Origin: Candidatus Roizmanbacteria bacterium RIFCSPLOWO2_01_FULL_41_22
Lineage (GTDB): Bacteria > Patescibacteriota > Microgenomatia > UBA1406 > GWC2-37-13
Reading direction: 5' to 3'
DNA length: 44,028 nt
Assembly (NCBI GenBank): GCA_001789805.1
Contig: MGAR01000011.1
Span: 1 to 44,028 of the forward strand
Shown: piece after piece, positions 4,623-38,496 of the stretch
Position numbering within the stretch: position 1 is the first letter of the stretch
How the letters are laid out: each line of letters begins with the position of its first letter
The notes under the pieces: generated by a model
What the model was told of the DNA's origin: nothing
The model's input: the letters and a program-made list of their open reading frames with translations, nothing else
The model's database searches: none
Made by a program: the position numbers and the translations under genes

Positions 4623-4626
4623 ATCT

Positions 4627-6815: not shown

Positions 6816-6818
6816 ATT

Positions 6819-7121
6819 ATGATCAATCCAATTCGCGCCTGGCGAACGCAAAAACAAATTAAACACTTACTTGGTAAGTCGGGCAAAATCATCACTTGGA
6901 CCACTATTTATGTGACCACTCCTGATTTCAAAAAACAGGCGCCTTACCCGGTGGTGTTAGTTGAGTATATAGATGGTGAGAGAGCCTATGGGCCATTGGT
7001 TAATTATGGCGATTGCGACTTAAGTATCGGAAAAGAAGTGTTTGGTGTGCTGCGGATTGTCCGTAAGGGTAACAGTGATGAGATAATCGAATACGGAATA
7101 AAATTTAAGCCGAAAGCCTAA
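6819..7121 (+). CDS. DUF35 OB-fold protein lacking its zinc ribbon
   Basis: The 100-residue protein sits between the thiolase and mevalonate kinase genes, where archaea encode the DUF35 scaffold that bridges thiolase and HMG-CoA synthase. The OB-fold half is clear: the GKIITWTTIYV strand, the hydrophobic YPVVLVEY strand with EYIDGERAYGPLV, and an RIVRKG/IIEYGIKF ending. Members usually begin with a rubredoxin-like ribbon holding two CxxC pairs. Here the N-terminal helix (IRAWRTQKQIKHLLGKS) runs straight into the OB-fold and the only Cys is in GDCDLS. The ribbon therefore seems to be lost, not just mutated. The scaffold role is inferred from operon context and family knowledge. Confidence 0.85.
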   Translation: MINPIRAWRTQKQIKHLLGKSGKIITWTTIYVTTPDFKKQAPYPVVLVEYIDGERAYGPLVNYGDCDLSIGKEVFGVLRIVRKGNSDEIIEYGIKFKPKA

Positions 7122-7123
7122 CA

Positions 7124-21018: not shown

Positions 21019-24000
21019 ATGACTCCTCCCAATCAACCGGAAAACGGCCCACCGGCACAACGTCTGCCGCCAGATGATGGTGCACCACCACCCAATCAAG
21101 AAGTTTTTACTTCCCAACCTGAGGAGCCGCTGACTCGCGATGAAGAGCAGTATATTGACCAGAAAAGGGCAGAGACCGCCGCCAAAGCCAACCAAAAAAA
21201 AGATCCGGCGGCAGCCGAGGGTAGCAAACTGGTTTCTGATTTTAAAGATCTTGCCCAACAGGCGGTCCAGGCAGAACAGGTCACCAATCAGAAAGTCGAC
21301 CAAAATCAGCCACGCACTTATGAGGGAAATATTCAAGATGAGAACGCTCCAAAACACAAAGTGCAGACAACTAAAGTTTGGGTTCAGGAAATTCTTAAAG
21401 CTTTTAAACATAAACCTCAGCTGATTGCCCAATCAGCGCCACAATCTCCAAACAACAGAAACGCTAGGATCTTAGAGGAGTTGACTGACCGAATTGAAGA
21501 TCCAGACAGCATCAGTGCGACGGCTTCACCATATATTTATAAATTGATTAATCGGGCGCTGACCGGCTCATACCGCCCCCTGCAGATTTTGGAAAAATTA
21601 GATTTAATTCGACTTCGTGCAATTGATCCACAACTGTTTAACCGCGTTGTTGGTGCAATGGCAAAGGTAGCGGAGACCACCGACTCCAAAGAAGAGATCG
21701 CCCAGTTTATGAGAGAGTTTCAGATAAACCCAGATTTATTACAAGGTAGAATGTCTCAAGGAGAAAGCCAACTATTGGAAAAATTTTCTACTGGTAGTCC
21801 GGATGATATTAATGCGCGTGAATTTTATAAAGCTCTACAATCAGGCGAATCCTTAAGGAAATATTACATAGACGAGATGCGTAAGATGAGACAGAATCCT
21901 GATATTGCTAATGATGAACAAGCAGCTAAAGCAGTAACTAAAAAAATTCATCAGACTATTGAATACGTCATCTATCGAATTTATGACACCACACTAAGGA
22001 ATCAGAAAGATAAAGATTTTGATGCTACGGCCCGCGATATTGGTGGTTTTTTTGAGAATCCGCAAATGCAGTACGATGCATTTTATAAAAAATTAACAAC
22101 TCTAGCTACTGATGTTGCCCAAGTGGAGACTGTTGATGATACTCCATATCAGGTTTTTCGCCATGAGACTAAAACAATATTTGACAGAAAAAAAGGACTG
22201 ATGGAAGTCAATGTAGAAACCAATAAACTGGAGAGCGCGCCGATTACCCGGTTTGTCTCCTCGTTGGGTGAGATTGCCAAGACCGAGCGCGGGATGTATC
22301 GCTATGGATTTAACTTCCGCTATCTTATCCAAAAGCCAACTGACCCTCGACAAGGCAGTTTGTTTGGAACCATCAAAAATTATGCCGAACAGGACATCGA
22401 CATGGAAACTTTTGACCGATTATACTCGCTTCCTTTTAACGATATGGTACAAGCAGCCAGACTGAGCCTGGAGCCGATGTACAAACGCTTTTTTGCCAAA
22501 TATGGCTGGCAGAAAGCAGCTGAGCTGATGAAAGACCCAAAAGACCCATTAAGTCCGTTTAACGCTCCGGAAAGCCGAGCGCGCGAACAACTGCTGGCCT
22601 ATTATAAAGGCCGGGCACCGGAGTGGGCAATCAGCCGGGCTTTTTATCATGCGCGGATGGAGTCATTTGGCAAAGAGTTTATGTTTCAGCTGTATTCCAG
22701 TTATGCCGATCCGATTCTTACCGATACCGGTCAACCTACTTATCTGAGCGAGTCGCCGTTTGCCCACAATTCAGTTTATGACTATGTGATGGAAGCCAAA
22801 CGCTGGGGCGGTGATTTTCGGATGAAAGGGATGATCTGGCTGCCGCGAAATCGGGTCTTTAAAAATTTTGATCATGAAAGTCTGATTGAGCGGGGAAAAA
22901 AACATTGGGAAAATTCTTTTAGATACGGCAATCTGGCCTATTTTGGCGATGAGGACTTTGAAGATGCGGAACAGATTATCGCCATGACCAATATCACCAA
23001 ACAAGGTGGCGTGGATATGGTTGGCGGCTGGCGGTTGATGCCCTCAATGGTGCACTGGATTGAGGATTATTTTGATAAGGGAGCTGATAAGATAAAAGCA
23101 GTGGACGGCGTATTTGTCAAAACATGGAAGTCGCTGGAAAATATCGGCATTAACGCCGTGAAAGTCTATTCGGAAAACTATCTGTTTGGCAAACTGGATG
23201 CTAAAGAGCTTACTGCCCGCGCGCCGGAGTGGGAAAAGTTTTATAAATTCTTATACCGGCGCTATTTTAGCGACGGCGTTGGCAGAAGTTTTGCCGGAGG
23301 TTTTACCAATGAAAACGAATATTGGAACCGGATAAAATCGCGGATTTTGGAAAGCTCGCTATCAGGCGTTGACAAAAAGGCAATGCTGATGGAGCATGTC
23401 TATAACGCCATGACGGTGATGCTGCATGAACGGACACCGCTGGAGTTTGTTTTTTCGGAAAGAGCCCGCTCTTCCCAAAATGGCATCACCCTGCAAAAAG
23501 AGCTGTATGACTGTTTTTTTGATCCGGAAAAAGGAGCGATCTGGGGCAGTACGCAAGCTGATTATGCCAAATGGGATGAGGCGCTTGATGACCTGATCTT
23601 TGTCCAGCAGCGCGCCCGGATGGACTCACTGGTAAAGATTGATGAACTGCGAGCTACTAATTCGACTAATATCTATGGAGACATCAATCAAGACAGAAGC
23701 AGTATCACTATCGGTGCAGGTAAAACCGGTTATGTTATTGACAGACAATATATAAGGCAGGTATTACAAGCCAGATATACTCAGGCGGGTGATGCGGATC
23801 GTGTCGATAGGGCAGTTAAGCTATATGAAGAGTTAACTAACCGACTGCAGGCCAAGCCGGAAGAAAGCGAACTGGAAAATAATTGGAGCCAGGGAAAAGA
23901 TCTTGAAGGAAACGCTGATCCAAAAAAAGCAGCTGAATATCGAGCGCTTCATGATCGGGCAAGAAACCGGAAGATCCAAGAGAGAAACGTCTGGTTTGCC

Positions 24001-24795
24001 AAAGCATGGCAAGACGGGAAGTTTGGGATGACTTTCTTATCCGATACCGCTGGTAAACTGCTTTACCGGGCCGCTACCGGTGAGGAAACCGTGGCCCGTA
24101 CTGCCGGCCGGATGGTGGTGACTGCTGAGGAGGTGCATAACTACTTTATGAATCTGGGTGAGGGCGGGTTTTTACCTCTAATCAAACCGGCGGCTCGTGA
24201 AGGGGAGGAGAAATGGAAACCGATTTATGATCGGATCAGCGAAATGAAAACTAAATTCAAATCAGAAGATGAAGATATGGCGCTGACAATGACTAAAGAA
24301 TTCGCTCAGTACGCGGTACTGATGTTAAGGCGCGACGATCGCTTTCGGGAGCTGGTTGACCGGACCGCCGCCCATTTTGCCAGAAAAAAAACTGCGATTG
24401 GTCATGCGTTTGTTGATGAAGGCTGGGCGCACGATATGGGACGGGAAGAGATATATAAATTTCTTTCCGTGTTCTCAACAGGGTATCTTATGCCTCAGTA
24501 TACGCCAAAAGACCAAAGACGCTACAAAGAAATAAAATACGATGAATTGCCAGTTGGCGCCAAGTTAAAAGAACAGCGCTGGTTGAAAAAATTATTAGGA
24601 CAGATAGAAAAAGATACCACTTTTTACGAGCGGGATTTTCTGGCCGAAGACTCTTCAGAAGGGGTGCGCAAAGCCGCCGGCGCTGGGAAAAAGGAGGTAT
24701 GGTTAAAGAATGGTATTTTATTAGCTGTAATAGTGGCGGGATTAATCCTTGCTTTAGCCGCCAAACAAGGTTTCAAAGAAATCAAGCTTTCGTAA
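21019..24795 (+). CDS. Giant uncharacterised tail-anchored protein (1258 aa)
   Basis: The N-terminal 115 residues are Pro/Gln/Ala-rich and probably disordered. From about 140 to 1200 the protein is a long, soluble, charged and mostly helical body with many Trp/Tyr/Phe-rich blocks (such as WGGDFRMKGMIWLPRNR) and no nucleotide-binding or catalytic motif I can name. One membrane helix (about 1230-1248, with LLAVIVAGLILALAA) lies 8-10 residues from the C-terminus, which makes it tail-anchored and almost wholly cytoplasmic. It has its own promoter and starts a locus of TrbC/VirB2-like, VirB6-like and cell-wall hydrolase genes. A structural or scaffolding role in that machine is inference only. Confidence 0.75.
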   Translation: MTPPNQPENGPPAQRLPPDDGAPPPNQEVFTSQPEEPLTRDEEQYIDQKRAETAAKANQKKDPAAAEGSKLVSDFKDLAQQAVQAEQVTNQKVDQNQPRTYEGNIQDENAPKHKVQTTKVWVQEILKAFKHKPQLIAQSAPQSPNNRNARILEELTDRIEDPDSISATASPYIYKLINRALTGSYRPLQILEKLDLIRLRAIDPQLFNRVVGAMAKVAETTDSKEEIAQFMREFQINPDLLQGRMSQGESQLLEKFSTGSPDDINAREFYKALQSGESLRKYYIDEMRKMRQNPDIANDEQAAKAVTKKIHQTIEYVIYRIYDTTLRNQKDKDFDATARDIGGFFENPQMQYDAFYKKLTTLATDVAQVETVDDTPYQVFRHETKTIFDRKKGLMEVNVETNKLESAPITRFVSSLGEIAKTERGMYRYGFNFRYLIQKPTDPRQGSLFGTIKNYAEQDIDMETFDRLYSLPFNDMVQAARLSLEPMYKRFFAKYGWQKAAELMKDPKDPLSPFNAPESRAREQLLAYYKGRAPEWAISRAFYHARMESFGKEFMFQLYSSYADPILTDTGQPTYLSESPFAHNSVYDYVMEAKRWGGDFRMKGMIWLPRNRVFKNFDHESLIERGKKHWENSFRYGNLAYFGDEDFEDAEQIIAMTNITKQGGVDMVGGWRLMPSMVHWIEDYFDKGADKIKAVDGVFVKTWKSLENIGINAVKVYSENYLFGKLDAKELTARAPEWEKFYKFLYRRYFSDGVGRSFAGGFTNENEYWNRIKSRILESSLSGVDKKAMLMEHVYNAMTVMLHERTPLEFVFSERARSSQNGITLQKELYDCFFDPEKGAIWGSTQADYAKWDEALDDLIFVQQRARMDSLVKIDELRATNSTNIYGDINQDRSSITIGAGKTGYVIDRQYIRQVLQARYTQAGDADRVDRAVKLYEELTNRLQAKPEESELENNWSQGKDLEGNADPKKAAEYRALHDRARNRKIQERNVWFAKAWQDGKFGMTFLSDTAGKLLYRAATGEETVARTAGRMVVTAEEVHNYFMNLGEGGFLPLIKPAAREGEEKWKPIYDRISEMKTKFKSEDEDMALTMTKEFAQYAVLMLRRDDRFRELVDRTAAHFARKKTAIGHAFVDEGWAHDMGREEIYKFLSVFSTGYLMPQYTPKDQRRYKEIKYDELPVGAKLKEQRWLKKLLGQIEKDTTFYERDFLAEDSSEGVRKAAGAGKKEVWLKNGILLAVIVAGLILALAAKQGFKEIKLS

Positions 24796-24853: not shown

Positions 24854-26764
24854 ATGCGTTTATTTAAAAATCTCCACATTCAAATAGTCATAATTTTATT
24901 TTTTGCCTTGATAGTTATTGCGGTAAAAAGTTATGCACAGCAGCAAGAGCCAAATACTTCGACAACAAAACTAAAATTTTGTGCAGTTGGCGGTAAAGAT
25001 ACACTCTGTTGTTCACCGGAGGGGTTACAGGTATATAAAGACATTTATGATAAGATGCCAGTATATCAATTTATCACACGATATGGGAAAATAGGTTTAG
25101 AGACTTTTCTTGATTGGTTACATCAAGACTTACAAGGAGGGCAAGACAGTAGCGATCTAAAAAAATATTGTCCGAATTTTGATGTTAAAGTTTTTGACTC
25201 TGAACTAACGAAAACATATGACACTAAAACGTTAGGAAAGATTGAAGGAAAAGACTGTTTAAATGCGGCTAAGTTTATCTACGAACAATTTGAAAAGGAC
25301 CCTTCGACGATGTACGCTTACAAATGCGACCCAAAGAAAACGGGTATAGAAAATTGCGCAATACTTTTTGTTAATGGGGAAAGTTCAAGGTTTTATAGCA
25401 ATTATCCAGTTTGTAAGGAGTCATTCAACGAGCTAACTATATTAGATTATTTTCCTGGGCACGAATATAGTGCTAGTCAAGGAGGGTTTCTTAGCGATCA
25501 TCAAGCTTATCTTTATAAACTTTACTTAAATAAGTTTGCTGAATTTAATGCCGATATAGTCGCTCCCTCAATTTCTCCCCCTACTGGTGAAGGTTGTGCA
25601 CCTGAGTATGCCAAAGCATTATTTATCAATAAGTATGACAACACCGCATGTACCTCAGACATTTGGAAATATCAGAGCAATAACACGACTCTTGTAACAG
25701 AGTTTATTGCCAATCAGATATTGGGTGATAATTTTTATCAGAGAAAGAGCTGTCTTAATGATCTAACGGTCGCTTTTTTAAGCGATACAAAAATTGTCAA
25801 TATGTTTAGTTATAAGACGTCGGGTAATCGGGCTAGAGATTGCTATGATGTACCTTTATCCAGTACCATAGACGATACAGGCAACTTAATCCCACAAGCA
25901 GTAGCTCCTTTAAGTTTACAAGCAATATCTTGCGGTTTACCAATGGAAAAAGATACTTATATGGTATCAAACCCTCTATCTGACCCCCAATTATCAGCGC
26001 AAACAAGCTGTTGTCCTCCGGTTAGTATGAGTTTAATTGATACAAATCCATATTTATCAAATATCGATCCAAAATTTTCCATCGGAATTAACTTAATAAA
26101 GTCATTAGTAGGAGTAGGCTTGCCTTTACTGGATAGTGTTTTAGCTCCTCTTAATAATCAGTGTCCTTTTGGCGGTGAACCATCTGACTCAAATCCGGAT
26201 CTGTGTCATTGTTTATTACCTTCCCAGTATTCAGAAGAACAGGCATCGGTACAAAGTAATGTCGCTGGAGCTAGTGATGTAAAAAGTGCAGCGACTGATA
26301 TCATCTATGACAAATACTGTAAAGTATTTCCACTAGCGCCAAATGGACAAACTGTGCAGCAAAGCTTAACAAGAGTTGGCTCAGAAAATAAACGGATGGA
26401 GGATTTATGCTGTAATATATTTACTGGTAATAATCTCAAAGAAGATGAGCTAAAAGCTTGTATTGATTGTGCTCATGATGATGGTGGCGTTTTTACAGCA
26501 ATGGGGTGTATACCGGTTGATTTTACAAAATTTGTCACTAAATATGTCCTAGGTGTAGGAGTTGGTTTGGCCGGTTTGATTGCGTTTTTATGCGTCATAT
26601 ATTCGGCGATTATTTTGCAAACTTCTTCCGGTAATGCCGAGCGTCTGAAAGCTACTCAAGAGCAGTTGACGTCATGTATCGTGGGCTTGATGCTGATAAT
26701 ATTCTCAGTTTTTATCTTGCGCTTAATTGGAGTTAATATCCTTAGAATACCCGGACTATCATAA
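24854..26764 (+). CDS. Secreted Cys-rich protein with C-terminal TrbC/VirB2-like helices
   Basis: The 636-residue protein starts with a signal peptide or anchor (hydrophobic core 10-24, then SYAQQQ, a plausible cleavage site). The following about 530 residues hold 24 cysteines, several as CC or CxC/CxxC pairs (TLCCSPE, TSCCPP, LCHCLL, DLCCNIF, KACIDCAHD), pointing to a disulphide-rich extracellular domain. The last about 85 residues form two membrane helices joined by TSSGNAERLKATQEQLTSCI, the same loop as the small TrbC/VirB2-like proteins at 8065-8879 and 35811-36158. So this looks like a pilin-like core with a large N-terminal ectodomain. Role inferred: surface adhesin or machine component. 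Confidence 0.7.
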   Translation: MRLFKNLHIQIVIILFFALIVIAVKSYAQQQEPNTSTTKLKFCAVGGKDTLCCSPEGLQVYKDIYDKMPVYQFITRYGKIGLETFLDWLHQDLQGGQDSSDLKKYCPNFDVKVFDSELTKTYDTKTLGKIEGKDCLNAAKFIYEQFEKDPSTMYAYKCDPKKTGIENCAILFVNGESSRFYSNYPVCKESFNELTILDYFPGHEYSASQGGFLSDHQAYLYKLYLNKFAEFNADIVAPSISPPTGEGCAPEYAKALFINKYDNTACTSDIWKYQSNNTTLVTEFIANQILGDNFYQRKSCLNDLTVAFLSDTKIVNMFSYKTSGNRARDCYDVPLSSTIDDTGNLIPQAVAPLSLQAISCGLPMEKDTYMVSNPLSDPQLSAQTSCCPPVSMSLIDTNPYLSNIDPKFSIGINLIKSLVGVGLPLLDSVLAPLNNQCPFGGEPSDSNPDLCHCLLPSQYSEEQASVQSNVAGASDVKSAATDIIYDKYCKVFPLAPNGQTVQQSLTRVGSENKRMEDLCCNIFTGNNLKEDELKACIDCAHDDGGVFTAMGCIPVDFTKFVTKYVLGVGVGLAGLIAFLCVIYSAIILQTSSGNAERLKATQEQLTSCIVGLMLIIFSVFILRLIGVNILRIPGLS

Positions 26765-26796: not shown

Positions 26797-28410
26797 TTAA
26801 CCTTTACCTGTTAGTCGGTTTGCATATCCCTGGAGTTTTTCCTTAGCCCCGCCAAATATTCCCTTTAAATGAGGTTGAATTATTGCAAACTGGTAGAAAT
26901 TATGAAAGATTGATCCGCCGGCCGCGCCAACTCCGGCAAATAAGGCACCGGCTCCCAGCTGTATTCCTTCACCAATTAGCGGTTTGATGGCGGTTTTAAC
27001 CAGATCAGGAATCATCACCAGCATAATGGCGGCAATGATCGCTATGAAAGCATTGGTGTGCAGGCCGGTAAGAAGCGGCATGGAAAAGCTATAATCAGGT
27101 ACGGCTATACTTAAACTAAAGATCACCTTGATAAGAAGTAGAAAAAAGATTACCAAAGGAAAGACTAACAGATAGCCAAACAGTCTTTTCAGCCATGTCC
27201 AAAAACTATTTTGTCCGGGTAGCGCGTTGGGTAAGATCAGTAGCGGCGCCAGAATGACCTGCAAGGTGATCTGAATATAAGCGCCGATCAAAAGAAAAAA
27301 TATTCGGAAATATAAAAAAAGCAGGCCGATTATTACTAATAAGATCGTTAAAATAGTGAGTAAAAGAGGGGCTAGGATTCCGCCTAAGAACAGAGTTAAA
27401 ATAATAGAAATTATTGCGGCAAAATTCAACGTAGCTACTAAAGGAGTAGCCGTTAGACGGCCTAATAATTTTTCGATAGGTTCCGATAGTCCTCTCATCA
27501 CAGCCAGGGCAAAGTAAATAATCAGTCCATCGTTGGCAAGATGTAATACTCCTTTGGCCATGTCGGGAAGAACGTTGTATAAATTATTTAGACCCGAGAT
27601 ATAGATCCAGAAACCTTCGGCCATTGATTTAAAAAGACCAACGCCGCCGATACTGACCAGATATGAATTAGCAAGAGAGTCCATGGAAGCCGGCGCAACA
27701 CCAAACTTGACACCGGATGAGACAAAAACTCCAAACATTAAAAAAATCAGTATATACATTAGATCCACCAGAAAGCCGGCAATGGCATAGGAAAAAGTAA
27801 TAAAAATCAGAGTCAGGACGATGTTGGGCAGGGCATTCTCAATCCCAATCACGGTCTGCGGATTGATTTTTGTGCGAAACATGATCAGAAACCCAATTGT
27901 GACAATTACCAGCACTAAGATCGTATAGGCGACATTGCGAAAAGCCTGCCAGATTGGCTGGAAAGTATGAAAAGAATAAAAACCGATGCCGGCCGCTTGC
28001 GTTTTTGGTATAAAGCCGACATTTTCCAGGCCCTTATAAGCCCACATCGAACCTGAGGCGGGCGGATAACCAAGCGGCATTGTTATCAGATTTGTCATCA
28101 TCCCAAAAACGCTACCATCATGATTTTTATCACCGTCTTTGGCGTTTTTAGTACAGGCTTCACCAATGGTATTACAGAGGATTGCTTGAAAGATCTTAAC
28201 TTGAGTTCGGCCGGCTTTGGTACTAGTCAGTTTTTTATCGTTGATATAGCCATAGACCATCTTCCTTAAGGATTGCAGGGAATCTTTATCCGAGGTTTTT
28301 TGTAACCCCGGCATAAACATCAAAAATGCATTGATGATCACTAGATAAATTAATGACATGAAAATTGTCCGTTTGATGTAAGTGAGGATTTTCCGGTAGA
28401 CCTTGGTCAT
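26797..28410 (-). CDS. VirB6/TrbL-like polytopic membrane protein
   Basis: The roughly 537-residue protein has about 8-10 membrane spans with long hydrophobic runs (AYTILVLVIVTIGFLIMF, IISIILTLFLGGILAPLLL) and a glycine-rich C-terminal amphipathic region (LGAGALFAGVGAAGG). This layout resembles VirB6/TrbL-type channel subunits of type IV secretion systems. The open frame extends to 28455, but a TTGACA-N18-TACAAT promoter ends 6 nt before the ATG at 28410 and would begin inside the longer frame, so I place the start at 28410 (MTKVYRKIL). It is transcribed away from the hydrolase genes, separated from them by a structured repeat. Confidence 0.75.
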   Translation of the reverse strand: MTKVYRKILTYIKRTIFMSLIYLVIINAFLMFMPGLQKTSDKDSLQSLRKMVYGYINDKKLTSTKAGRTQVKIFQAILCNTIGEACTKNAKDGDKNHDGSVFGMMTNLITMPLGYPPASGSMWAYKGLENVGFIPKTQAAGIGFYSFHTFQPIWQAFRNVAYTILVLVIVTIGFLIMFRTKINPQTVIGIENALPNIVLTLIFITFSYAIAGFLVDLMYILIFLMFGVFVSSGVKFGVAPASMDSLANSYLVSIGGVGLFKSMAEGFWIYISGLNNLYNVLPDMAKGVLHLANDGLIIYFALAVMRGLSEPIEKLLGRLTATPLVATLNFAAIISIILTLFLGGILAPLLLTILTILLVIIGLLFLYFRIFFLLIGAYIQITLQVILAPLLILPNALPGQNSFWTWLKRLFGYLLVFPLVIFFLLLIKVIFSLSIAVPDYSFSMPLLTGLHTNAFIAIIAAIMLVMIPDLVKTAIKPLIGEGIQLGAGALFAGVGAAGGSIFHNFYQFAIIQPHLKGIFGGAKEKLQGYANRLTGKG

Positions 28411-28416
28411 AAATTC

Positions 28417-28446
28417 ATTGTAGATTATCTTTAACTCAGTTGTCAA
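28417..28446 (-). promoter_or_regulatory. Promoter TTGACA-N18-TACAAT (minus strand)
   Basis: -35 at 28441-28446 and -10 at 28417-28422 on the minus strand. The ATG at 28410 is 6 nt downstream. It decides the start of the VirB6-like gene. Confidence 0.7.
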
Positions 28447-28456
28447 TGAAAGCAAC

Positions 28457-28578: not shown

Positions 28579-28989
28579 TTACTCATACCGTAAGTCAAGG
28601 GACTGAATTTGCTGGTCGGTCAAGCCTTGACCTTTTATCCATTGGAGCACTGACTGTTGAGCCGCGACTTTGTCGGAACTTAAGAAACGAATAGTAAAAT
28701 AAAAATGTTCGGTCGGAGTCGAGGTAAAATCGGACGTGATGGAAAAAAAATTATTTTGATAGGGGGTAATATTTGCCAGAAAAGCATCAGGATACTCGGT
28801 TTTTTGAAACTGTTCTTGTTTTTCCGCAGTGCCCGGTGGCGGCGCATTATAATTAATAGGTTCCGTAGTGGGTGTAGCGTTAGGTTGTCTTTTTTCTGGG
28901 AGCGATCTTCTTGATAAAAAATAGATTAACAAGAAGAGAATAAATGCAATAATAATTAAGATGACGATGATTATGGTTGTTTTTTTCAT
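28579..28989 (-). CDS. Signal-anchored protein related to the hydrolase N-terminal repeats
   Basis: The 136-residue protein (start placed at the ATG overlapping the upstream TGA by 4 nt) has an N-terminal membrane anchor (about 5-24), a Pro/Thr-rich linker (QPNATPTTEP) and a C-terminal domain of about 90 residues. The segment FTIRFLSSDKVAAQQSVLQW with the following IKGQGL resembles the two repeats in the N-terminal part of the neighbouring hydrolase (units containing AATDLQQWAKDNNL and NAAVTQWAKDNQL). The two genes are translationally coupled, and their products may interact through this shared domain. The domain itself is unnamed to my knowledge. Confidence 0.65.
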   Translation of the reverse strand: MKKTTIIIVILIIIAFILFLLIYFLSRRSLPEKRQPNATPTTEPINYNAPPPGTAEKQEQFQKTEYPDAFLANITPYQNNFFSITSDFTSTPTEHFYFTIRFLSSDKVAAQQSVLQWIKGQGLTDQQIQSLDLRYE

Positions 28990-31043
28990 TGGAAATTTTT
29001 TACTAGCCAATCTTTAATATTATTATCAGGGTTATCAGGATTATTATCAAGAACGACGATACGGGTTTGCACTAAGCCCCGTTTTCCCCAGTTAGCTTCG
29101 GCAACTTTAAATCTGGTGGGACTATAAACTTCCATTACATAAGCAACATGGCCGTAACGTCCAAAACTCCAGCGTGGTAAATAACCTACTTGAACAGTAT
29201 CAACATCGGTTCGTGTTACTGGTCGATAATCGGGCAGGCTTAAATCTTTTGCATTACCGTATGACCCACACAGTTTATCAGGAGAAGTTTTATAAAGTTC
29301 AACATCCGTTCCTTTAACAAAACCGACACACTGAAAATTACTTTCTTTATTATTCATCATTTTTGTCAATTCACAGTTGATATACTTACGCGTATCGTTA
29401 TTGATTACCCCTTGATTTAAACAGGAACGGTTGTAATATGTTACCCTCCCAATAGCACCAGCATAAGTACAGTTAGCTCTGATATTATCAACTAATTGTT
29501 GGATAGAGTTAGAAGCTAAGATAGGAATAGGAGACAGATTGTTAGCAATATATCCTTGATTGTTTAAGCTATTTTGATAATGGTCCCAGACAAAACCAAC
29601 ATAGGTTTTATTGTTAATATGAGCATATCGTGTTGTAGTACATTTATAATTTCCATTTCCATCTTTTCCCCAGCCATAGTAATTACATACGGCATTTTTT
29701 ACCTGATCATATGTCCAGGTATTTGGATCGGTAGCCCCACTACTATTTTTTAAATGGGCAGCTGTGGCAAAGATAATATCACGATAATTGCACGGATTAG
29801 GTTCTGCCGTAGATCCACCATAAATTTTGACCGAGTCTTTTAATTTGATTCCTAATCTTGGTAGTTGGCCATTCCAAACATCCAGATTATTACCTGGACA
29901 TCGGTTGACTCCGGGATTACATTTCAAACAGTTATAATCACGATTCGTTGATATATCTTCTTGCGAAGTATCGTTAAGCCGATAACCTCGCAATATCTGA
30001 ACGATTCCCCAAGCTCCACATGAATTGATGTAACATTGAGAATAAGGCGCATGATTTCCTGGTTGAGAATATTCCAGTATTTTATCATCGGGTAATGAAT
30101 TGGTAGCAGTTTCCGTCCGAATAAAGGCTTCCAGAATTCTCCAAGGCACTTCTACTTTCTCACCCGCCTCTTGGATAATCGCTTTAAGGGCTAAGCCAGT
30201 GTTAAAAGGATTATAAGTAGCATCATCAGTTGTGGGAGGTGGCGGTAAAGAGCTAGGACCGATATCAGGTGGAAGAGAAGGGCTGGTTTCTGATGAGCCA
30301 TTTATTCGGGCAAACAGGTCAAGCGCGGTATGGAAATAATCAACGTACTTCTGGTTTAGCTTTTTATAAGTTTCGCTGGTAGTGTCAGTTATGCGTGGTA
30401 TGGAAGTGGGGAGGGGGATGCGGGTGGGAGTGGGTACAGCCGGATCGATCTGGTGTTGCACAAAAATATTAGGATCTTTGATCAGTTCGTCAAGTTGGTT
30501 ATCTTTAGCCCATTGAGTTACCGCCGCGTTAGAATTGGCCTTTTTTTTATCGACCACAAACGTCTGCAGATTTTCATTGTAATAAATGGCAATATTATTG
30601 TCTTCATAACCGGTAGATCTTAGTTTAGCAAGGATCGCTTTTTCTTGGTCGGAGAGCGTTTTTTTTGTCGCCAGATCGATGGTGGTAAAATAATCGGGAT
30701 TTTTGATAAGGGTCAGTAAATTATTGTCTTTTGCCCATTGTTGCAGATCAGTCGCCGCCTGATCGGTTTTTAAAAGTATTACCATTTTTTGCAGTTCCGG
30801 CGAATAAAACACCGCCACATTAGCCGTAGATAGCGGGGGGAGGGTCTGCAGTTTTTTTAGGGTACTTTGTTTTAATAAAGTATTAAAAGAACCACCAGAT
30901 GGGTAGGGAGTGGCGGTGGTATTAATTTCTGGTTTAGGGTTTTCTGTTTTTTGGGTGAAGATTTTTTCCCGGCTGAAATATATAAGAAGGAACGTCAGAA
31001 TTAAAAAAAAGATCAACAAAAAAACGATGAGATATTTTTTCAT
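28986..31043 (-). CDS. Bifunctional cell-wall hydrolase: lytic transglycosylase-like + CHAP
   Basis: The 685-residue protein has a membrane anchor (4-22), two repeats of about 40 residues (about 76-119 and 150-194) and Pro/Thr-rich linkers. A lysozyme-like domain follows (about 295-500): VPWRILEAFIRTETA gives the catalytic Glu (E311), followed by GAWGIVQI, as in SLT/VirB1-type transglycosylases. The C-terminal CHAP peptidase (about 560-665) has the nucleophile C572 in FQCVGFVKG, H632 in GHVAYVMEV and an EANWG block. Such dual enzymes (compare VirB1 or CwlT of conjugation systems) open the wall for a secretion machine. The middle region is Cys-rich. It diverges from clpC, with 51 nt between the starts. 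Confidence 0.88.
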   Translation of the reverse strand: MKKYLIVFLLIFFLILTFLLIYFSREKIFTQKTENPKPEINTTATPYPSGGSFNTLLKQSTLKKLQTLPPLSTANVAVFYSPELQKMVILLKTDQAATDLQQWAKDNNLLTLIKNPDYFTTIDLATKKTLSDQEKAILAKLRSTGYEDNNIAIYYNENLQTFVVDKKKANSNAAVTQWAKDNQLDELIKDPNIFVQHQIDPAVPTPTRIPLPTSIPRITDTTSETYKKLNQKYVDYFHTALDLFARINGSSETSPSLPPDIGPSSLPPPPTTDDATYNPFNTGLALKAIIQEAGEKVEVPWRILEAFIRTETATNSLPDDKILEYSQPGNHAPYSQCYINSCGAWGIVQILRGYRLNDTSQEDISTNRDYNCLKCNPGVNRCPGNNLDVWNGQLPRLGIKLKDSVKIYGGSTAEPNPCNYRDIIFATAAHLKNSSGATDPNTWTYDQVKNAVCNYYGWGKDGNGNYKCTTTRYAHINNKTYVGFVWDHYQNSLNNQGYIANNLSPIPILASNSIQQLVDNIRANCTYAGAIGRVTYYNRSCLNQGVINNDTRKYINCELTKMMNNKESNFQCVGFVKGTDVELYKTSPDKLCGSYGNAKDLSLPDYRPVTRTDVDTVQVGYLPRWSFGRYGHVAYVMEVYSPTRFKVAEANWGKRGLVQTRIVVLDNNPDNPDNNIKDWLVKNFQ

Positions 31044-31094: not shown

Positions 31095-34000
31095 ATGTCC
31101 GGTATTTTTGATTTTATAAAAAAACAGCCTGCAGATGCAAGCCAAGATGGAAAAAGCGATCCAGCACCAAGCGCCGCTTATCAGTCTGGTTTGGCAAGTC
31201 AAACTGTCAGTGAAACGACTACCACAGCTCAATCCTATAATGGCGTAGGTAATCCGCCGAGCGGTCGAGCTTACAATGGTGTCGGCAGACCGCCGCCGCC
31301 CGTCAATCCTCCTAAAATGGGCGCTTCTTTGGACTCCAATATCAATCAGCAAAAACGCAATGATCTTGATGTGATGACTCATCTGACTCAACGTTCCAAC
31401 CGGGTATTTATGGCCGCTACCAACAAAGCCAAAGAGTTGCAAAATGCGATCGTGGACACGGAACATCTGCTGTTTGGACTCTTAACTGATGGCGAGATTT
31501 TCAAGATGCTCACCGATTTAAAGATCGCGCCACAGCTGGTGGAACAGGAATTGACTAAAGTATATAAAAGGGAAAACAGCAAATTCCCGCCGCAGCCATC
31601 CCCAAGAGTGAAAAGAATAATCGGGAACTCTTTGATTTTTGCCCGTAAACTGGGCTATGAATTTATCTCGCCGGAACATATCCTCTTGGCTTTATTTGAC
31701 GAGGGAGAAGGCGCGGCCGCCAGGATACTGGTGAAGCTCGGTCTTAAAAAAGAAGATTTGAATAAGAAAGTGACCGGCAAAAAAGAGGGCGTGACTGACC
31801 AGACGGGTCAACAGAAAGTACCGGAAAAGAAAAAAAGTGCGCTTGAACAATACTCCATTGATCTGACAGCCAAAGCCGCCGCCGGTGAACTTGACCCGGT
31901 GGTAGAGATATCAGACATCATCGAAAGAGTAGTGCATGTACTGTCGCGAAGATTGAAAAATAATCCGGTTCTGATTGGTGAGCCGGGAGTGGGAAAAACA
32001 GCAGTAGTTGAGGGCTTGGCCGAGCGCATTGTGGCAAAACAGGTGCCTGAGACATTATTAAACAAAAGGATTTTACAGTTTGATCTTACCGGTGTGATTG
32101 CCGGCGCTTCCCACCGGGGTGAGTTTGAGGAGCGGATGAAAAATGTGGTGGAAGAGCTTAAGGCCAGCAAAGGCCAGGTAATTCTGTTTATCGACGAGCT
32201 GCATACCTTAGTCGGAGCAGGAACTGGTAATGAGACCGCTCTTGATGCCTCAAATTTCCTCAAGCCCGCTCTTTCTCGGGGAGAGGTGCAGTTAATTGGT
32301 GCCACCACCATCACCGAGTACCGTAAGTATATCGAAAAAGATGGAGCATTAGAAAGACGTTTTCAAACTGTTCTTGTTCCTGAACCTACTACCGAAAAAA
32401 CAATAAAGATGCTCAAGGCGGTACGCGATCGTTTCGAGGCCTTTCACCGAGTCAAAATACCCGATGAATCAATTGATGCGGCAGTTAGGTTATCCAAGCG
32501 TTATATCGGCGACCGATTTTTACCCGATAAGGCTTTTGATTTGATGGACGAGGCAGGAGCCGCAGTCAGACTGCCCTTGATATCTCTTCCCGAGGAGATT
32601 AATTCAATGGACGTACGCATAAAACAACTTGAACAAGAGATTGGGGAAGATGAGAAAAGAGGGGAGAAGGTCAAAGCCAGAATTAGTCGCTCGAAGCTGA
32701 GCGACATTCAGGCCACACTTAACGCCAAAAAAGACGAATACAACATGAAAAAAGCGCAAACTACCAATTATGTGACAGTAAACATCATCAAAGAAGCGGT
32801 ATCCAAAAGAACCGGTGTACCGGTTTCCAAAATGACTGGTTCGGAGTTAGACAAACTGGCCAAATTGGAAGATATCATGCATAAGCGGCTGATTGATCAG
32901 GAAAGAGCGGTAGCTTCGGTGGCACAGGCTGTTAGACGGGGCCGCGCCGGCTTAAAATCCAATGCTCGGCCCATCGGCAGTTTTATCTTCTTGGGGCCAA
33001 CGGGCGTTGGTAAAACAGAACTGGCTAAGACGCTGGCGGAGATCTTATTTGATCAGGAGGAAGCGATTATCCGTTTTGACATGACCGAGTATATGGAGCG
33101 GCACGAAGTCGCCAAACTTCTGGGTTCGCCGCCCGGTTATGTAGGATTTGAAGATGGGGGTAAGTTAACCGAGTCAGTCCGTCGTAAGCCTTATTCTTTG
33201 GTGTTGTTTGATGAGGTAGAAAAAGCGCACCCCGATATCTTCAATATTCTGTTGCAGATTCTTGACGACGGTCGGCTGACTGACAATAAAGGTCGGACTA
33301 TTTCTTTCAAAAACACAGTTGTTATCTGTACTTCAAACCTGGGCACCAAGATGATTCAGGACGAAATGGTTAAAAGCAATACAGGTCAGGTAGAGGAGCC
33401 GCCGATTCTTTCCACCTATACTTTTTCTCCGCGCGGCCGCGAAATTCTCACTATCGGCACTAAATTTTTTGAAAGAGACAATGTTGTTTCGATGCAAAAT
33501 ATTGGGCAACCCGTTGCCAAACAGTCAACTCCGGCCACCTGGCAATCATCTGGTCTACATGAGTATTTTGCCGGCCAGGAGATGAAAGCAAAAATGGAAG
33601 CTCAAAAACCGGAATTGGTCGCGACTGAAGCTCAAGATGTCAATCAAGATCAGGAACCAGCAGAGGTTAATCCACAGGCGGAAAAAGTGCGCTACGAGTT
33701 TCCGATTTTAGGTTATGATACACACGCCATTTCCCAAAAAGGGACGGAAGTCATCACCAAAGACACACAGGTATTTTTGCGAAGTGCCACCACTGCCAAA
33801 GTTTGGGAAGGTACCAATCTTATCGATTATTTTAAGGATCAGATAGTGGTCAATGCCCTGCCGGATGCGCCTGATGAACAGTTGCCTACCGCCAAACTGA
33901 AAACTCACGCCTTTACACCCGACGAAAAAGAGATCGTCACTTACAAAGATCGCTACTGGATAAGGAAAGAAGGTTCCGCCGACTGGCAAACAGGCTCTCT

Positions 34001-34937
34001 TAAGGATTATTTCATTGGCCAGAAATCAGATACTGGGAGCCTGCCCACTTCTCATTGGGATATCCATACTTTTTCCCCGTCAGGACACGAAGTGATCATT
34101 GTTGGTAACAATATCTGGCATCGTGAACAAAACAACCCGGTCTGGAAATCACAGACACTAGCCGATTATTTCGGCACCGATTTTCCGCTGGAAAAAGAAC
34201 TTGGTGAAAAAAAACGAATAGAGTCTGCCTCAGACGTCAAAAAATATCAGAAGATAAAAGACAAAGTCATGGTTGAGTTGGTGAAGTTTTTCCGACCGGA
34301 ACTGATTAACCGTTTTGACGAAGTTATCGTATTTGAGCCTTTGAAATTTGAGCACATGATTGAGATAGTTAAATTACAGTTAAAGGATTTGTCAAAACTG
34401 CTTGAGGAGCAGGAGTTGGGATTTTCCTACACCGATTCAGCTATCAAAGAGATTGTCCGGTCGGGGTTTGACCCAATCTATGGCGCCAGACCCTTAAGAA
34501 GAGCTATTCAAAGATTGGTCGAAAATCCGATCTCTGAATTGATTATTGCCCAAAAAGTAAAAGCCGGAGACACGATTATTCTTGATTTTAACGGTGAAGA
34601 GTTTACTTTTAACGTGGAAAGAGTGGAGATGGTTCCCTCAGATTCTTTAAATCAAGCAGTCGGCGGAAAAAAGAAATTTGTTTGCGAATCATGTGCTAAG
34701 CAGTTTGAGACGGAAGTGGTACCAAACTCTACCGCTATCTGCGCCAACTGCGCCTCGCCAAAAGTACAGGAAATTGCCGCGGCCAAAGAAGAAAAATGGG
34801 ACGGGTTAAGCAAGCAAACGCAAGACAACAATATACCAAAATCAGCAGAAAGTGCCGATGAATCTCCTCCAAAAAGCGCTGAGTCAGAGCAAGACACAAC
34901 TGACGCTCAACACGCTCAAGGGCCGTCTGCAATTTAA
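31095..34937 (+). CDS. clpC: ClpC-like AAA+ unfoldase with a four-repeat insertion in NBD2
   Basis: An ATP-driven unfoldase of 1280 residues, against about 810-860 for normal ClpC. Order: disordered Pro-rich head (1-85), Clp_N double repeat (90-225), NBD1 with Walker A GEPGVGKT (295-302) and FIDE (365-368), a short coiled M region (500-555), then NBD2 with GPTGVGKT (634-641), pore loop GYVG (681-684) and LFDEVEKAH (704-712). Straight after the sensor-1 strand [10 protein letters not shown], about 280 residues (766-1046) are inserted before [19 protein letters not shown] resumes the fold. The insert holds four degenerate repeats ending in a Y-F block. In ClpC this is where the ClpP-docking (V/L/I)GF loop sits, and no such tripeptide is found in the insert. 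A C-terminal CxxC-x15-CxxC zinc ribbon (1197-1219) and an acidic tail are further additions. Confidence 0.92.
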
Positions 34938-35127: not shown

Positions 35128-35811
35128 GTGTACGATTGGAATATCTTCATTATTGTCATCTTAGAACTCATCTTTCTGCATTTGATTTCCAGGCGATCAA
35201 TCACCATGCTGTTTCATTTCTTTCATCATTACCTTCGTAACAAACGAGTGGTTTATAGTCTGATTGCTTTACTGTTTATGCCCGGGACCATAATTCATGA
35301 ATTAAGCCATTTTTTTGTAGCAATAGTGCTTTTTTTAAGAGTAAGAGAGATCTCAATTTTTCCGGATTGGCAAGGGAATCAGATTAAGCTGGGAAGTGTG
35401 CTTTATGAAAAAAAAGACCCTCTCCGCGGTATATTGGTGGGCATAGCGCCGCTTTTTATTGGTTTATTTTGTCTTTATTGGCTTAGTTTTTTTTTGGTGC
35501 AACAAAATGAGGTTACTTTTGGGGTCAGGCTGTTATTTCTTTATCTGATTTTTGTCATCTCAACTACGATGTTTTCATCCAAACAGGACCTGGTGGACGG
35601 CGTGTATGTCTTACCGATTTTGCTGATTTTAGCGATTTTGTCTTATGTCCTGCAAATAGATTACCGCTTGATATTTGCCTTAAGCCGCGATCTGGTTGTA
35701 ATTGCGCAGAATATTTTATATGCTTTAGTAAAATATTTAGCGCTGTCTTTAGGCGTTCATTTATTTATTATTGGCAGTTTTGAGCTCTGGAAGCGGATAA
35801 TTAAAAAGTAA
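35128..35811 (+). CDS. HExxH membrane protein, possible M50-like metalloprotease
   Basis: The 227-residue protein starts at a GTG 3 nt after the previous stop. It is polytopic, with about 5-6 helices. The third hydrophobic segment contains HELSH at 57-61 (TIIHELSHFFVAIVL), the zinc-binding HExxH pattern of intramembrane proteases. A later SKQDLVDG (151-158) may supply the third ligand, like the LDG motif of the S2P/M50 family. Between them is a short beta-like cytoplasmic segment (REISIFPDWQGNQIKLGSVL). The TAATG junction with the downstream pilin-like gene indicates coupling. The substrate is unknown, and proteolytic activity is inferred. Confidence 0.6.
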   Translation: MYDWNIFIIVILELIFLHLISRRSITMLFHFFHHYLRNKRVVYSLIALLFMPGTIIHELSHFFVAIVLFLRVREISIFPDWQGNQIKLGSVLYEKKDPLRGILVGIAPLFIGLFCLYWLSFFLVQQNEVTFGVRLLFLYLIFVISTTMFSSKQDLVDGVYVLPILLILAILSYVLQIDYRLIFALSRDLVVIAQNILYALVKYLALSLGVHLFIIGSFELWKRIIKK

Positions 35812-36158
35812 TGGAAAAACTACTCGCTCAAGGACTGATTATTCAGCCGACCTCGCTACCGGGCCAACCCACGGTGCCGCCGGTTAATATCCAGGGGCCG
35901 TTAGTTGGAATAAATAATCTTGGTGACATTATTAATCTTTCGCTGAAATTCTTGCTGCCCTTGGCGGCGGTTGTTCTATTTTTTGTTATTGTCTATGGCG
36001 GGTATGATCTGTTGATGTCGCAGGGGAATCCGGAAAAAATTAGTGCCGGCCGCAATAAAATTACAACCGGCATCATCGGCTTTGTACTTTTGGTTTTATC
36101 CTACGTGATAGTCAAGTTGATTGCTTGGATTTTTGGCTTGGGTGGCGGGATTATCTGA
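35811..36158 (+). CDS. TrbC/VirB2-like two-helix pilin-like protein
   Basis: The 115-residue protein has a Pro-rich N-terminus and two membrane helices (about 44-66 and 86-108) linked by MSQGNPEKISAGRNKITTGI, the same loop plan as the other pilin-like proteins here. It overlaps the stop of the HExxH gene by one base and ends 3 nt from a converging gene. It is the fourth member of this family in the window. Confidence 0.72.
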   Translation: MEKLLAQGLIIQPTSLPGQPTVPPVNIQGPLVGINNLGDIINLSLKFLLPLAAVVLFFVIVYGGYDLLMSQGNPEKISAGRNKITTGIIGFVLLVLSYVIVKLIAWIFGLGGGII

Positions 36159-36161
36159 GTT

Positions 36162-36998
36162 TCATGGGGTATATTCCTTGATCGCTTTTTCGTAGCTTTC
36201 GGCACTGCCAAGTTCAAACCACTGACCTTCAAACACAAAGCCGTTTACCTTGTGGTCACTTATCAGTTTTTCAATCACGTCTTCCAAAGAGAAGCTGGAT
36301 TTGTTTTTGGGAAAATACTGAAAAATTTCCGGTTCAAACAAATAAATTCCACCGTGGATCAGGTGGCTTTTAATGGTTTTTTGTTTGGCTTTTTGATAAA
36401 AATGAACCAGTTTTGTACCCTGGAGCGTGAGCTGACCAAACATGTCGGGTTTATCGACTGTGGTTAAAGCCACGGTGGCAATCTGGTTTTGTTCCTGATG
36501 GAAGGCGATAAAATCATTATAAGAGAGGTTCGTCAAGATGTCGCCATGAATCACTAAAAAGGTACAGGTTGTCAGTTGTTTTTTGTTTTTTAACAATGCC
36601 CCGCCGGTCTGGAGCGGTTCTTTTTCTTCAGAGTAACTGATTTTTACGCCAAATTTGCTGCCGTCGCCGAAATACTTTTTGATTTTATCTCCCAAATAGC
36701 CGATACAAAGAATTATCTCGGTGATATCGCTGGCTTTTAGCTTAGCGATGAGTCTTTCCAAAACCGCTTTACCTTTTACCGGGAGGAGCGTTTTGGGGAT
36801 TTCATAGGTATAAGGACGCAAGCTGCTGCCTGTTCCGCCGGCTAACACCACTGCTTTGGTGACCGTTGATTTGAGAAACTGATTGAGGGCATATTCTATG
36901 GCGTGTGATCGATTGCGGATGCGGTTTTTATCAACCAGTTTATCGACCTTCATTAATGTGTTAGTATCAACTGTGATAGTAATTCGCGATCTACGCAT
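36162..36998 (-). CDS. RHH DNA-binding domain fused to a sugar-phosphate nucleotidyltransferase
   Basis: The 278-residue protein joins two domains. Residues 1-43 (RITITVDTNTLMKVDKLV, then RNRSHAIEYALNQFL) read as a ribbon-helix-helix CopG/Arc-type DNA-binding fold. From 47 onward is a GT-A nucleotidyltransferase: VLAGGTGSSLRPYTYEIPKT with the signature Lys (K69), the metal-binding HGDILTN (D153), and a C-terminal half without a hexapeptide repeat. The usual GxGTR loop reads GTGSS, so the Arg is missing. Such enzymes make NDP-sugars from sugar 1-phosphates. An RHH head suggests DNA binding and perhaps autoregulation of the divergent promoter region; that is inference. Confidence 0.85.
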   Translation of the reverse strand: MRRSRITITVDTNTLMKVDKLVDKNRIRNRSHAIEYALNQFLKSTVTKAVVLAGGTGSSLRPYTYEIPKTLLPVKGKAVLERLIAKLKASDITEIILCIGYLGDKIKKYFGDGSKFGVKISYSEEKEPLQTGGALLKNKKQLTTCTFLVIHGDILTNLSYNDFIAFHQEQNQIATVALTTVDKPDMFGQLTLQGTKLVHFYQKAKQKTIKSHLIHGGIYLFEPEIFQYFPKNKSSFSLEDVIEKLISDHKVNGFVFEGQWFELGSAESYEKAIKEYTP

Positions 36999-37124: not shown

Positions 37125-37156
37125 ATCCCGCTTGAGCAAAAAGCGGGATTTTTTTT
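37125..37156 (+). terminator. Intrinsic terminator in the leader of the UMP kinase fusion (attenuator)
   Basis: A perfect 9-bp stem ATCCCGCTT/AAGCGGGAT (37125-37133, 37141-37149) with a 7-nt loop runs into eight T. It stands between the promoter and the gene start, 11 nt before the ATG, as expected of an attenuator. Confidence 0.8.
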
Positions 37157-37167
37157 GGGCTAAAATT

Positions 37168-38496
37168 ATGAATCAAGACTATAAAGAACCACCGATAATT
37201 ATTTCAATCGGCGGCTCACTACTGGTACCCAACGGCGGAATTGATACCCATTTTTTAAGCCAGCTCAACATTTTTATCCGAAATTACGTCAAAAAAGGCA
37301 AGCGCTTTTTTTTGGTCGCCGGCGGCGGGACCACGGCCAGGCATTATCTTGATGCAGGCAAGGCAGTGATTGGCGATATGTCGCAGGAAGATTTAGATTG
37401 GCTGGGGATACATGCTACTCGCCTAAACGCCCATCTTTTAAGAACGATCTTTGAGGATATTGCCCATCCGCGCATCATTGAAAATTACGAAAAAAAATTA
37501 CACAACTGGAAAGAACCGATTGTCATTGGCGCCGGCTGGAAACCGGGTTGGTCCACCGATTACGATGCGGTATATCTAGCCCGTGATTACAAAGCTAATT
37601 TGATTATTAACTTATCAAATATAGATTGGGTTTATGATAAAGATCCCAAACTTCATCCCGACGCCCGAGCAATCGAAAAATTAACCTGGGTTGAGCTTAA
37701 TGACCTAATCCCTAAAGAATGGAAACCCGGCATCAATGCCCCTTTTGATCCGGTGGCAGCCAATCTGGCCAGTGAGCTGAAATTGACGGTAATTGTTGCC
37801 AACGGCTCAGATTTTCAAAATCTGGAAAGTATCATTGAGGGCGATGAGTTTAAGGGGACAGTGATTATGCCGTATCGGGTGGATGCCAGTTTTTATGACA
37901 GAGAATACTTTGCCGGTAAAAAGGCCAGCTATAAATTCACTCGTGCTGACTCGCTTGTCAGCCGTTTTTTTCGCGGCATAGCTTATTTTTACCGAGCCCT
38001 TCTTATTAAATTATTTTTGAATCCCGCCAACTGTCTTGATGTGGGGTGCGGCACTGGAGGTTTGGTAAAAATGATGCGGCGGTTTGGAATCGATGCTTGG
38101 GGGATTGAGCTTTCCCAAGACGCTCTTGATCTGGCCGTACCCTCGGTGAAGCCTTTCTTAAAAAGAGGCGAAATAGTGGATCTGCCCTATAAAGAAGATC
38201 AGTTTGAACTGGTGGTGACTTTTGATGTGTTAGAACATCTGGAAAGGTCAAAAATCAAAAAATCTGTCAATCAGACTGTCCGCGTTTCCAAAAAATACAT
38301 CCTTCATAAAATCTATACGCGGGAAAACAGCTGGATCAGCTGGTTTCACAGTAAAGATTATTCACATATCAATGTGCTGACTGCCAGATTTTGGAAGAAG
38401 TTTTTTCTTCAGCACGAACAGGTTGTGTTACAGCGCAATTCGTTTTTTAAGCTACCTTTATTTTTTGAGTCGGTTTTTCTTCTGAAAAAAAAATAG
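37168..38496 (+). CDS. UMP kinase (archaeal-like) fused to a SAM-dependent methyltransferase
   Basis: The 442-residue protein has two enzymes in one frame. Residues 8-236 are an amino-acid-kinase-fold UMP kinase: SIGGSLL, the VAGGGTTARHYL nucleotide loop, LGIHATRLNAHLL, a glycine-rich IVIGAGWKPGWSTDYDAV and the WVYDKDPKLHPDA motif, all as in archaeal-type PyrH. The usual Lys before GGS is Ser. Residues 240-442 are a class I methyltransferase: motif I CLDVGCGTGG (289-298), GIELS, and the post-II stretch VVTFDVLEHLE. The frame opens at a TTG at 37132, but that lies inside the terminator, so the ATG at 37168 is chosen. The methyl acceptor is unknown. Confidence 0.88.
   Translation: MNQDYKEPPIIISIGGSLLVPNGGIDTHFLSQLNIFIRNYVKKGKRFFLVAGGGTTARHYLDAGKAVIGDMSQEDLDWLGIHATRLNAHLLRTIFEDIAHPRIIENYEKKLHNWKEPIVIGAGWKPGWSTDYDAVYLARDYKANLIINLSNIDWVYDKDPKLHPDARAIEKLTWVELNDLIPKEWKPGINAPFDPVAANLASELKLTVIVANGSDFQNLESIIEGDEFKGTVIMPYRVDASFYDREYFAGKKASYKFTRADSLVSRFFRGIAYFYRALLIKLFLNPANCLDVGCGTGGLVKMMRRFGIDAWGIELSQDALDLAVPSVKPFLKRGEIVDLPYKEDQFELVVTFDVLEHLERSKIKKSVNQTVRVSKKYILHKIYTRENSWISWFHSKDYSHINVLTARFWKKFFLQHEQVVLQRNSFFKLPLFFESVFLLKKK

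Follow-up and report, generated by a model that had tools for sequence, protein, structure and literature searches.

The window analysed here, a stretch of 44,028 nt, corresponds to positions 1–44,028 of contig MGAR01000011.1 (assembly GCA_001789805.1) from Candidatus Roizmanbacteria bacterium RIFCSPLOWO2_01_FULL_41_22. It carries a clpC gene whose product contains a large insert in its second AAA domain (D2). The genes around clpC and the elements of ClpC outside the insert are as follows.

24854–26764, upstream and divergent, protein with a weak T4SS-pilin match (Pfam)
26797–28455, upstream and divergent, multi-TM protein (no Pfam match)
28986–31043, upstream and divergent, CHAP-domain protein with a lytic-transglycosylase-like part (read from the sequence; Pfam CHAP just under the cut-off)
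31095–34937, forward strand, clpC, 1280 aa, Hsp100/ClpC type with two AAA domains (ORF, Pfam, PDB match)
31095–31379, forward strand, N-terminal head, residues 1–95, with the motif IFDFIKKQ at 4–11 followed by Pro-rich low-complexity sequence (sequence)
31977–32000, forward strand, D1 Walker A motif GEPGVGKT, residues 295–302 (motif search)
32994–33017, forward strand, D2 Walker A motif GPTGVGKT, residues 634–641, invariant in the alignment (motif and alignment)
33138–33149, forward strand, D2 pore loop, GYVGF region (YVGF, residues 682–685), intact (motif and alignment)
33312–33344, forward strand, sensor-1 strand, 11 residues (740–750) ending in TSNLG, the final canonical element of D2 ahead of the insert
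34287–34313, forward strand, arginine-finger motif FFRPELINR, residues 1065–1073, intact (motif and alignment)
34683–34751, forward strand, zinc-ribbon-like C-terminal tail CxxC-x(17)-CxxC, residues 1197–1219 (sequence comparison)
Downstream of clpC, M50-like membrane protein (weak match)
35811–36158, downstream of clpC, T4SS-pilin-type protein (Pfam, above the cut-off)

The Pfam domains of the protein occurred in the ClpC order (Clp_N, AAA, AAA_lid_9, AAA_2 and ClpB_D2-small), and its top PDB match, over the whole length, was B. subtilis ClpC (E 2e-228). The features of class I ClpC, namely two Clp_N repeats, two AAA domains with Walker motifs and a D2-small domain, were all observed by Pfam, motif searches and the PDB alignment. 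The middle domain is of the short ClpC type and not of the long ClpB type, with residues 500–560 aligning gap-free to B. subtilis ClpC, and the protein reached neither the NCBIfam cut-off for ClpB (924.9 vs. 1232.1) nor those for ClpK and ClpG (734.9 and 724.7, respectively, vs. 1900). Judging from its sequence, the two ATPase sites are retained, as are the pore loop of D2 and the arginine finger. It shares two Clp_N repeats, D1, a short M-domain, D2 and D2-small with the ClpC proteins of B. subtilis and S. aureus, but differs from them in its additional N-terminal head and zinc ribbon, in having a predicted propeller segment of ~295 residues instead of the VGF loop, and in the lack of ClpP in its genome.

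The zinc ribbon and the Pro-rich head had been listed in the original prediction as further additions to this ClpC. Both are present, but neither counts towards what is novel here, since orthologs without the insert carry them as well: of 50 insert-bearing rows 38 had the zinc ribbon, as did 16 of 18 insert-less ones, and insert-less orthologs shared the FDFIKK motif of the head. The two elements belong to the whole subfamily.

The gene order around clpC was common to insert-bearing and insert-less loci, so that the association with envelope genes is one of clpC and not of its insert. The original prediction offered, as an alternative, that the repeats may dock another partner, perhaps a neighbouring envelope or secretion component. 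Since insert-less orthologs share this neighbourhood, the neighbours point to no partner of the insert, and none specific to it stood out when 35 insert-bearing and 17 insert-less loci were compared. A ribbon-helix-helix domain fused to a nucleotidyltransferase domain is encoded at 36162–36998 of the window. This family was represented at 15 of the 35 insert-bearing loci and 1 of the 17 insert-less loci, and a LexA-like gene at 0 and 9 of them, respectively; both biases probably follow clades. Also within the window were a 454-aa ORF with an amino-acid-kinase and then a methyltransferase domain (37132–38496), which is conserved beside clpC, a 1258-aa ORF with a Pro-rich start, a C-terminal TM-like segment and no notable Pfam match (21019–24795), and a row of HMG-CoA reductase, HMG-CoA synthase-like, thiolase-like and GHMP kinase genes resembling a mevalonate-pathway cluster (3504–8068).

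The insert and its predicted fold

In a phmmer comparison with B. subtilis ClpC, residues 96–754 aligned with residues 5–665 of the B. subtilis protein, and residues 1047–1172 with residues 678–803. B. subtilis residues 666–677, the VGF loop region, fell in the alignment gap, where the insert begins. D2 is normal up to sensor-1 and again from the helix preceding FFRPELINR, and the ~295 residues between sensor-1 and the arginine-finger helix contain four homologous repeats. All six pairs of these repeats, termed blades below, were homologous in a profile–profile comparison of blade alignments (E 1e-9 to 5e-17). The four degenerate repeats described in the original prediction are therefore real, and the coordinates that it gave for the insert were right to within a few residues. 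The insert comprises the following features.

33390–34232, forward strand, insert, residues 766–1046, at the position of the D2 ClpP-docking loop or P-loop (alignment; predicted fold)
33411–33581, forward strand, predicted propeller blade 1, residues 773–829 (four strands and a short helix in the AlphaFold2 model; blade homology)
33714–33845, forward strand, predicted propeller blade 2, residues 874–917 (AlphaFold2 model; blade homology)
33846–33890, forward strand, inter-blade loop of 15 residues (918–932) between blades 2 and 3 (conservation scan)
33897–34025, forward strand, predicted propeller blade 3, residues 935–977 (AlphaFold2 model; blade homology)
34056–34181, forward strand, predicted propeller blade 4, residues 988–1029 (AlphaFold2 model; blade homology)
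34188–34289, forward strand, long predicted helix from the propeller to the arginine-finger segment, residues 1032–1065 (AlphaFold2 model of D2 plus insert)

VGF P-loops insert into the H-sites of ClpP in ClpC and ClpE complexes (PMC13125188). As had been predicted, no (V/L/I)GF tripeptide was found in the insert of the window. Across 50 insert-bearing loops it occurred three times, compared with 6.4 occurrences expected by shuffling, and was thus not enriched; all three occupied a single position, immediately ahead of the FP conserved in blade 2. None of 17 insert-less Roizmanbacteria loops contained the tripeptide, and a GF docking loop was present in ClpC of Clostridia and of those members of the class that have ClpP. 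An intact ClpP loop elsewhere in D2 was looked for by alignment and not found, the remainder of D2 being collinear with B. subtilis ClpC. The insert had been proposed to replace the docking loop. The site is exact, but a direct replacement did not take place in this lineage to judge from the insert-less orthologs, because these lack the GF loop as well.

An AlphaFold2 model of the insert, based on 32 aligned inserts, had a mean pLDDT of 81, with values mostly above 90 in blades 2–4; confidence was low for blade 1 and for the linkers joining it to blade 2, and the N-side linker was partly disordered. The strand order, EEEE-helix four times, is that of a four-bladed beta-propeller with adjacent N and C ends. 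When the model was searched with Foldseek, hemopexin-fold proteins (seed albumins, vitronectin, hemopexin and MMPs) occupied the first 17 places, with 3oyo as the best match (E 4.7e-8) and a TM-score by target of up to 0.73 (MMP9, 1itv). A second model, of D2 plus insert, kept the propeller and placed a 34-residue helix (model residues 468–501) between it and the arginine-finger segment, and D2 of this model matched the D2 structures of ClpC and ClpB best. By sequence, no match of the insert to hemopexin was found in Pfam at E up to 1, and no relative of the propeller in the PDB at E up to 10, where the Clp flanks alone were matched; the best Pfam family for the repeats, DUF1570 (E 0.029), was under the cut-off and was rejected. 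Since no sequence match to hemopexin families was obtained, the term hemopexin-like refers to a predicted fold and not to proven descent. On the strength of the two models, the insert is in all likelihood a four-bladed hemopexin-like propeller on a long helix. This predicted fold is a point beyond the original prediction, whose author saw the repeats but not the fold.

The hemopexin-like domains of vitronectin, MMPs, hemopexin and plant seed albumins likewise have four blades of four strands and a short helix, as modelled for the insert, but they occur in secreted proteins, whereas the insert has a cytoplasmic AAA+ setting, and they show no detectable sequence similarity to it. The best conserved 15-residue stretch of the insert, above the blades themselves, was the inter-blade loop 918–932, which is kept in family f24 too and is the most promising candidate functional site.

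A search of Patescibacteria with the repeat profile, as suggested with the original prediction, was run. The insert profile had matches in just 4 of 381 genomes of the phylum, so the propeller domain is rare. At the class level, the insert profile also matched a secreted protein of 790 residues in genome G125 (L123:3–2372, forward strand; E 1.3e-11), with four recognisable blades, DUF2961, dockerin-like ends and a signal peptide. The adjoining ORF of L123 (from ~4490, 503 residues) encodes a secreted protein in which four blades were discerned by eye. These secreted propeller proteins have four blades of the same motif as the ClpC insert, but, unlike ClpC, they combine them with a signal peptide and, in the 790-residue protein, with DUF2961 and dockerin-like ends, and have no AAA domain. 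Genome G534 encodes a 250-residue membrane-anchored protein with partial blades. A phage or viral origin of the insert was rejected, as no match was found in annotated phages or viral contigs. It is reasonable to suppose that the propeller of ClpC may have been recruited from that of a secreted protein.

ClpP and the history of the insert

ClpP (PF00574) was not found in the genome of the window, which is 93% complete; 12 of 14 control genomes were positive. The 72 genomes of its family yielded two weak, divergent full-domain ClpP-like matches and five marginal ones. Strong ClpP (E <1e-70) was detected in 9 of the 233 genomes of the class, all in families f19 and f31, and none of the nine had the insert. 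A separate ClpC with an LGF or IGF loop was present in five of the seven ClpP-bearing class members checked (G150, G087, G142, G106 and G176), and a GF-loop copy was not recovered in the other two (G121 and G133). On this five-in-seven basis, ClpP and the GF loop appear to go together in the class, and the window's ClpC has neither. To the question, raised with the original prediction, of whether genomes with the insert keep clpP, the answer for strong ClpP was negative. Its proposal that this ClpC does not use ClpP agrees with the lack of ClpP in its own genome and nearly all of the family, with the absence of the docking tripeptide, and with the separate GF-loop ClpC of most strong-ClpP genomes; on these sequence comparisons, ClpC of the window is very probably independent of ClpP. 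The absence of the protease clearly accounts for the missing docking loop.

The same genome (G000) encodes two other Clp proteins. One is a degenerate, apparently membrane-anchored double-AAA protein of 749 aa (C10, L009:2441–4690, forward strand), which paired with a relative from G220 (L118) at 100, on long branches, in the core tree. The other is a second Clp ATPase, of 715 aa and without Clp_N (C20, L008:3257–5404, reverse strand), which grouped in the tree with ClpB-like copies across the class and has no docking loop.

A contig scan recovered ~60 relatives of the window's ClpC from Ca. Roizmanbacteria, Woesebacteria and other Microgenomates-type assemblies; most of the complete ones bear the insert, and the rest hold a charged linker at the site. 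Within the family, by our tally from the profile-search table, the insert profile was strong in 38 of 72 genomes; in another 27 it matched at the flanks only, meaning that these possess an insert-less ClpC. At the class level, full or nearly full inserts occurred in families f1, f2, f3, f20 and f24. An assembly error, the possibility raised against the insert in the original prediction, was rejected, because dozens of independent assemblies carry it, at 46–64% identity. The linker of insert-less lineages measures ~31–62 residues (139 in one case) and never contains (V/L/I)GF. Insert-less ClpC of Ca. Roizmanbacteria share the neighbourhood, N-terminal motif and zinc ribbon of the window's ClpC, but differ from it in this linker, which is neither a GF loop nor a propeller.

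In a tree of the D1–D2 core, with the loop left out, a clade of 69 rows united all propeller-bearing and charged-linker ClpC and left outside it both GF-bearing ClpC and the ClpB-like copies. A single clade of all insert-bearing ClpC was rejected by the AU test (p ~1e-47), and the starred branches of the tree force at least three changes. The propeller tree split f20/f24 from the Roizmanbacteria group (99), as did the core tree, an agreement that fits vertical inheritance. The simplest account would be one gain after the loss of the GF loop, followed by several losses; this order, based on one basal insert-less sequence (L096), is likely. Having been lost several times, the propeller does not appear essential to the machine. 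In genome G272, a 353-aa ORF (L124, from ~2164, forward strand) encodes a ClpC D2 that has decayed as an ATPase (Walker A GPTGPAKT) while keeping the propeller; it lies upstream of an amino-acid-kinase gene, the usual position of clpC.

A proposed role for the propeller

Usually, Hsp100 unfoldases are classed by whether they deliver substrates to ClpP or act by themselves. A domain with a predicted fold at the site that would normally grip ClpP, in a lineage without ClpP, suggests that the motor has been refitted for something other than a protease. In our opinion, the best explanation overall, with a probability of about 0.65, is that the window encodes a stand-alone ClpC-type Hsp100 unfoldase with an exit-side propeller as a binding module. 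In the hexamer, six propellers would stand around the pore exit on the former ClpP-facing surface of D2, because the docking loop sits on that surface in ClpC/ClpE–ClpP complexes. A substrate would enter at the Clp_N side, be threaded through D1 and then D2, and leave on the propeller side, where the propeller, less certainly, may dock an exit-side partner or capture the emerging chain. The product would be refolded, remodelled or handed off instead of being degraded.

Hemopexin domains mediate protein interactions, and the predicted fold makes a binding role of the insert plausible. The propeller is rather likely to be a binding module on the exit face. The docking of a separate partner is favoured over the holding of an emerging chain by about two to one, because the propeller is rigid, its fold is a protein-binding one, and conservation is strongest in a surface-type loop. 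ClpL, ClpG and ClpB are stand-alone disaggregases that act without ClpP and have no IGL/F motif (PMC11006417), a motif that the window's ClpC lacks too.

Several other explanations were weighed. The place of the docking loop is on the D2 face opposite the N-domains, and the Clp_N repeats, which are kept, are able to target substrates themselves; both points make it unlikely that the propeller reaches round the ring on its helix as a substrate-side, aggregate-targeting domain and binds misfolded proteins. Such a role would fit the length of the connecting helix (34 residues), the partial disorder of the N-side linker and the way in which stand-alone disaggregases recruit aggregates through accessory domains, as with the NTD of ClpL (PMC11006417) and likewise the N-domain of ClpG.

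The insert could also be neutral, tolerated on a surface freed from the ClpP constraint and repeatedly lost as it did little. By the simplest reading of the tree ClpP was lost first, there were several independent losses of the insert, and the insert evolves faster than D1/D2: in the two close pairs with dS <1, from which dN/dS was taken, its values were 0.017 (L022/L029) and 0.087 (L057/L064), compared with 0.006 and 0.007 for the D1–D2 stretch. However, the dN/dS values of the insert are far below 1, the fold and the four blades are kept across distant families, and the 15-residue inter-blade loop is better conserved than the blades. The dN/dS values indicate purifying selection on the insert, albeit with faster evolution than in D1/D2, and neutrality is improbable.

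The insert occupies a peptidase-docking site, and a few relatives (the insert-bearing G069 and G220, and G025) have a divergent ClpP-like singleton, which might suggest that the insert docks a different, unrecognised peptidase and that the complex remains a protease. This is very unlikely, since these ClpP-like genes turn up sporadically without following the insert, no fused or constantly adjacent peptidase family was seen, and the window's genome yielded neither ClpP nor a member of the HslV/proteasome family (PF00227); the latter gave four matches, three above the cut-off, in the 72 family genomes. FtsH was present in the window's genome. Equally improbable is another beta fold for the repeats (a different propeller or a non-closed array), with the hemopexin match as a side effect of AlphaFold and Foldseek: the lack of a hemopexin sequence match in Pfam or solved structures and a TM-score by query of just ~0.4–0.5 would agree with it, but the query includes helices and disordered linkers, which accounts for the low score, and the high confidence in blades 2–4, the four strands and short helix of each of four blades, and the 17 leading Foldseek places, all hemopexin folds, argue against it.

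For the stand-alone unfoldase with an exit-side binding module, a fuller account can be offered tentatively, as one possibility. After the loss of ClpP in this lineage of Microgenomates-type bacteria, the docking face may have become a platform on which six propellers around the exit pore, recruited and related to those of secreted proteins, receive the unfolded chain or pass it on to a non-protease partner.

We know of no stand-alone Hsp100 disaggregase with a folded domain at the docking-loop site, and to our knowledge an Hsp100 with a dedicated exit-side accessory domain of this kind has not been described. Literature searches returned nothing joining ClpC and a hemopexin-like domain, the single match concerning haem tolerance in a streptococcus, and nothing joining Roizmanbacteria and Clp; the matches joining Patescibacteria, ClpP and ClpC appear to concern other matters. 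ClpC with its insert is a genuine and conserved, if unusual, version of a machine already known. If the model is right, it adds a cytoplasmic, intramolecular use of the four-bladed hemopexin-like propeller. The lineage consists of tiny, mostly uncultured bacteria, and protein quality control is, as far as we know, almost unstudied in this large bacterial group. It seems to show a passage between the types of Hsp100, in which ClpP and the GF loop were lost, a domain was gained in the vacated site, and this domain was later lost several times. As such, it can serve as a natural experiment, open to testing, on the fate of an unfoldase's product once the protease is gone.
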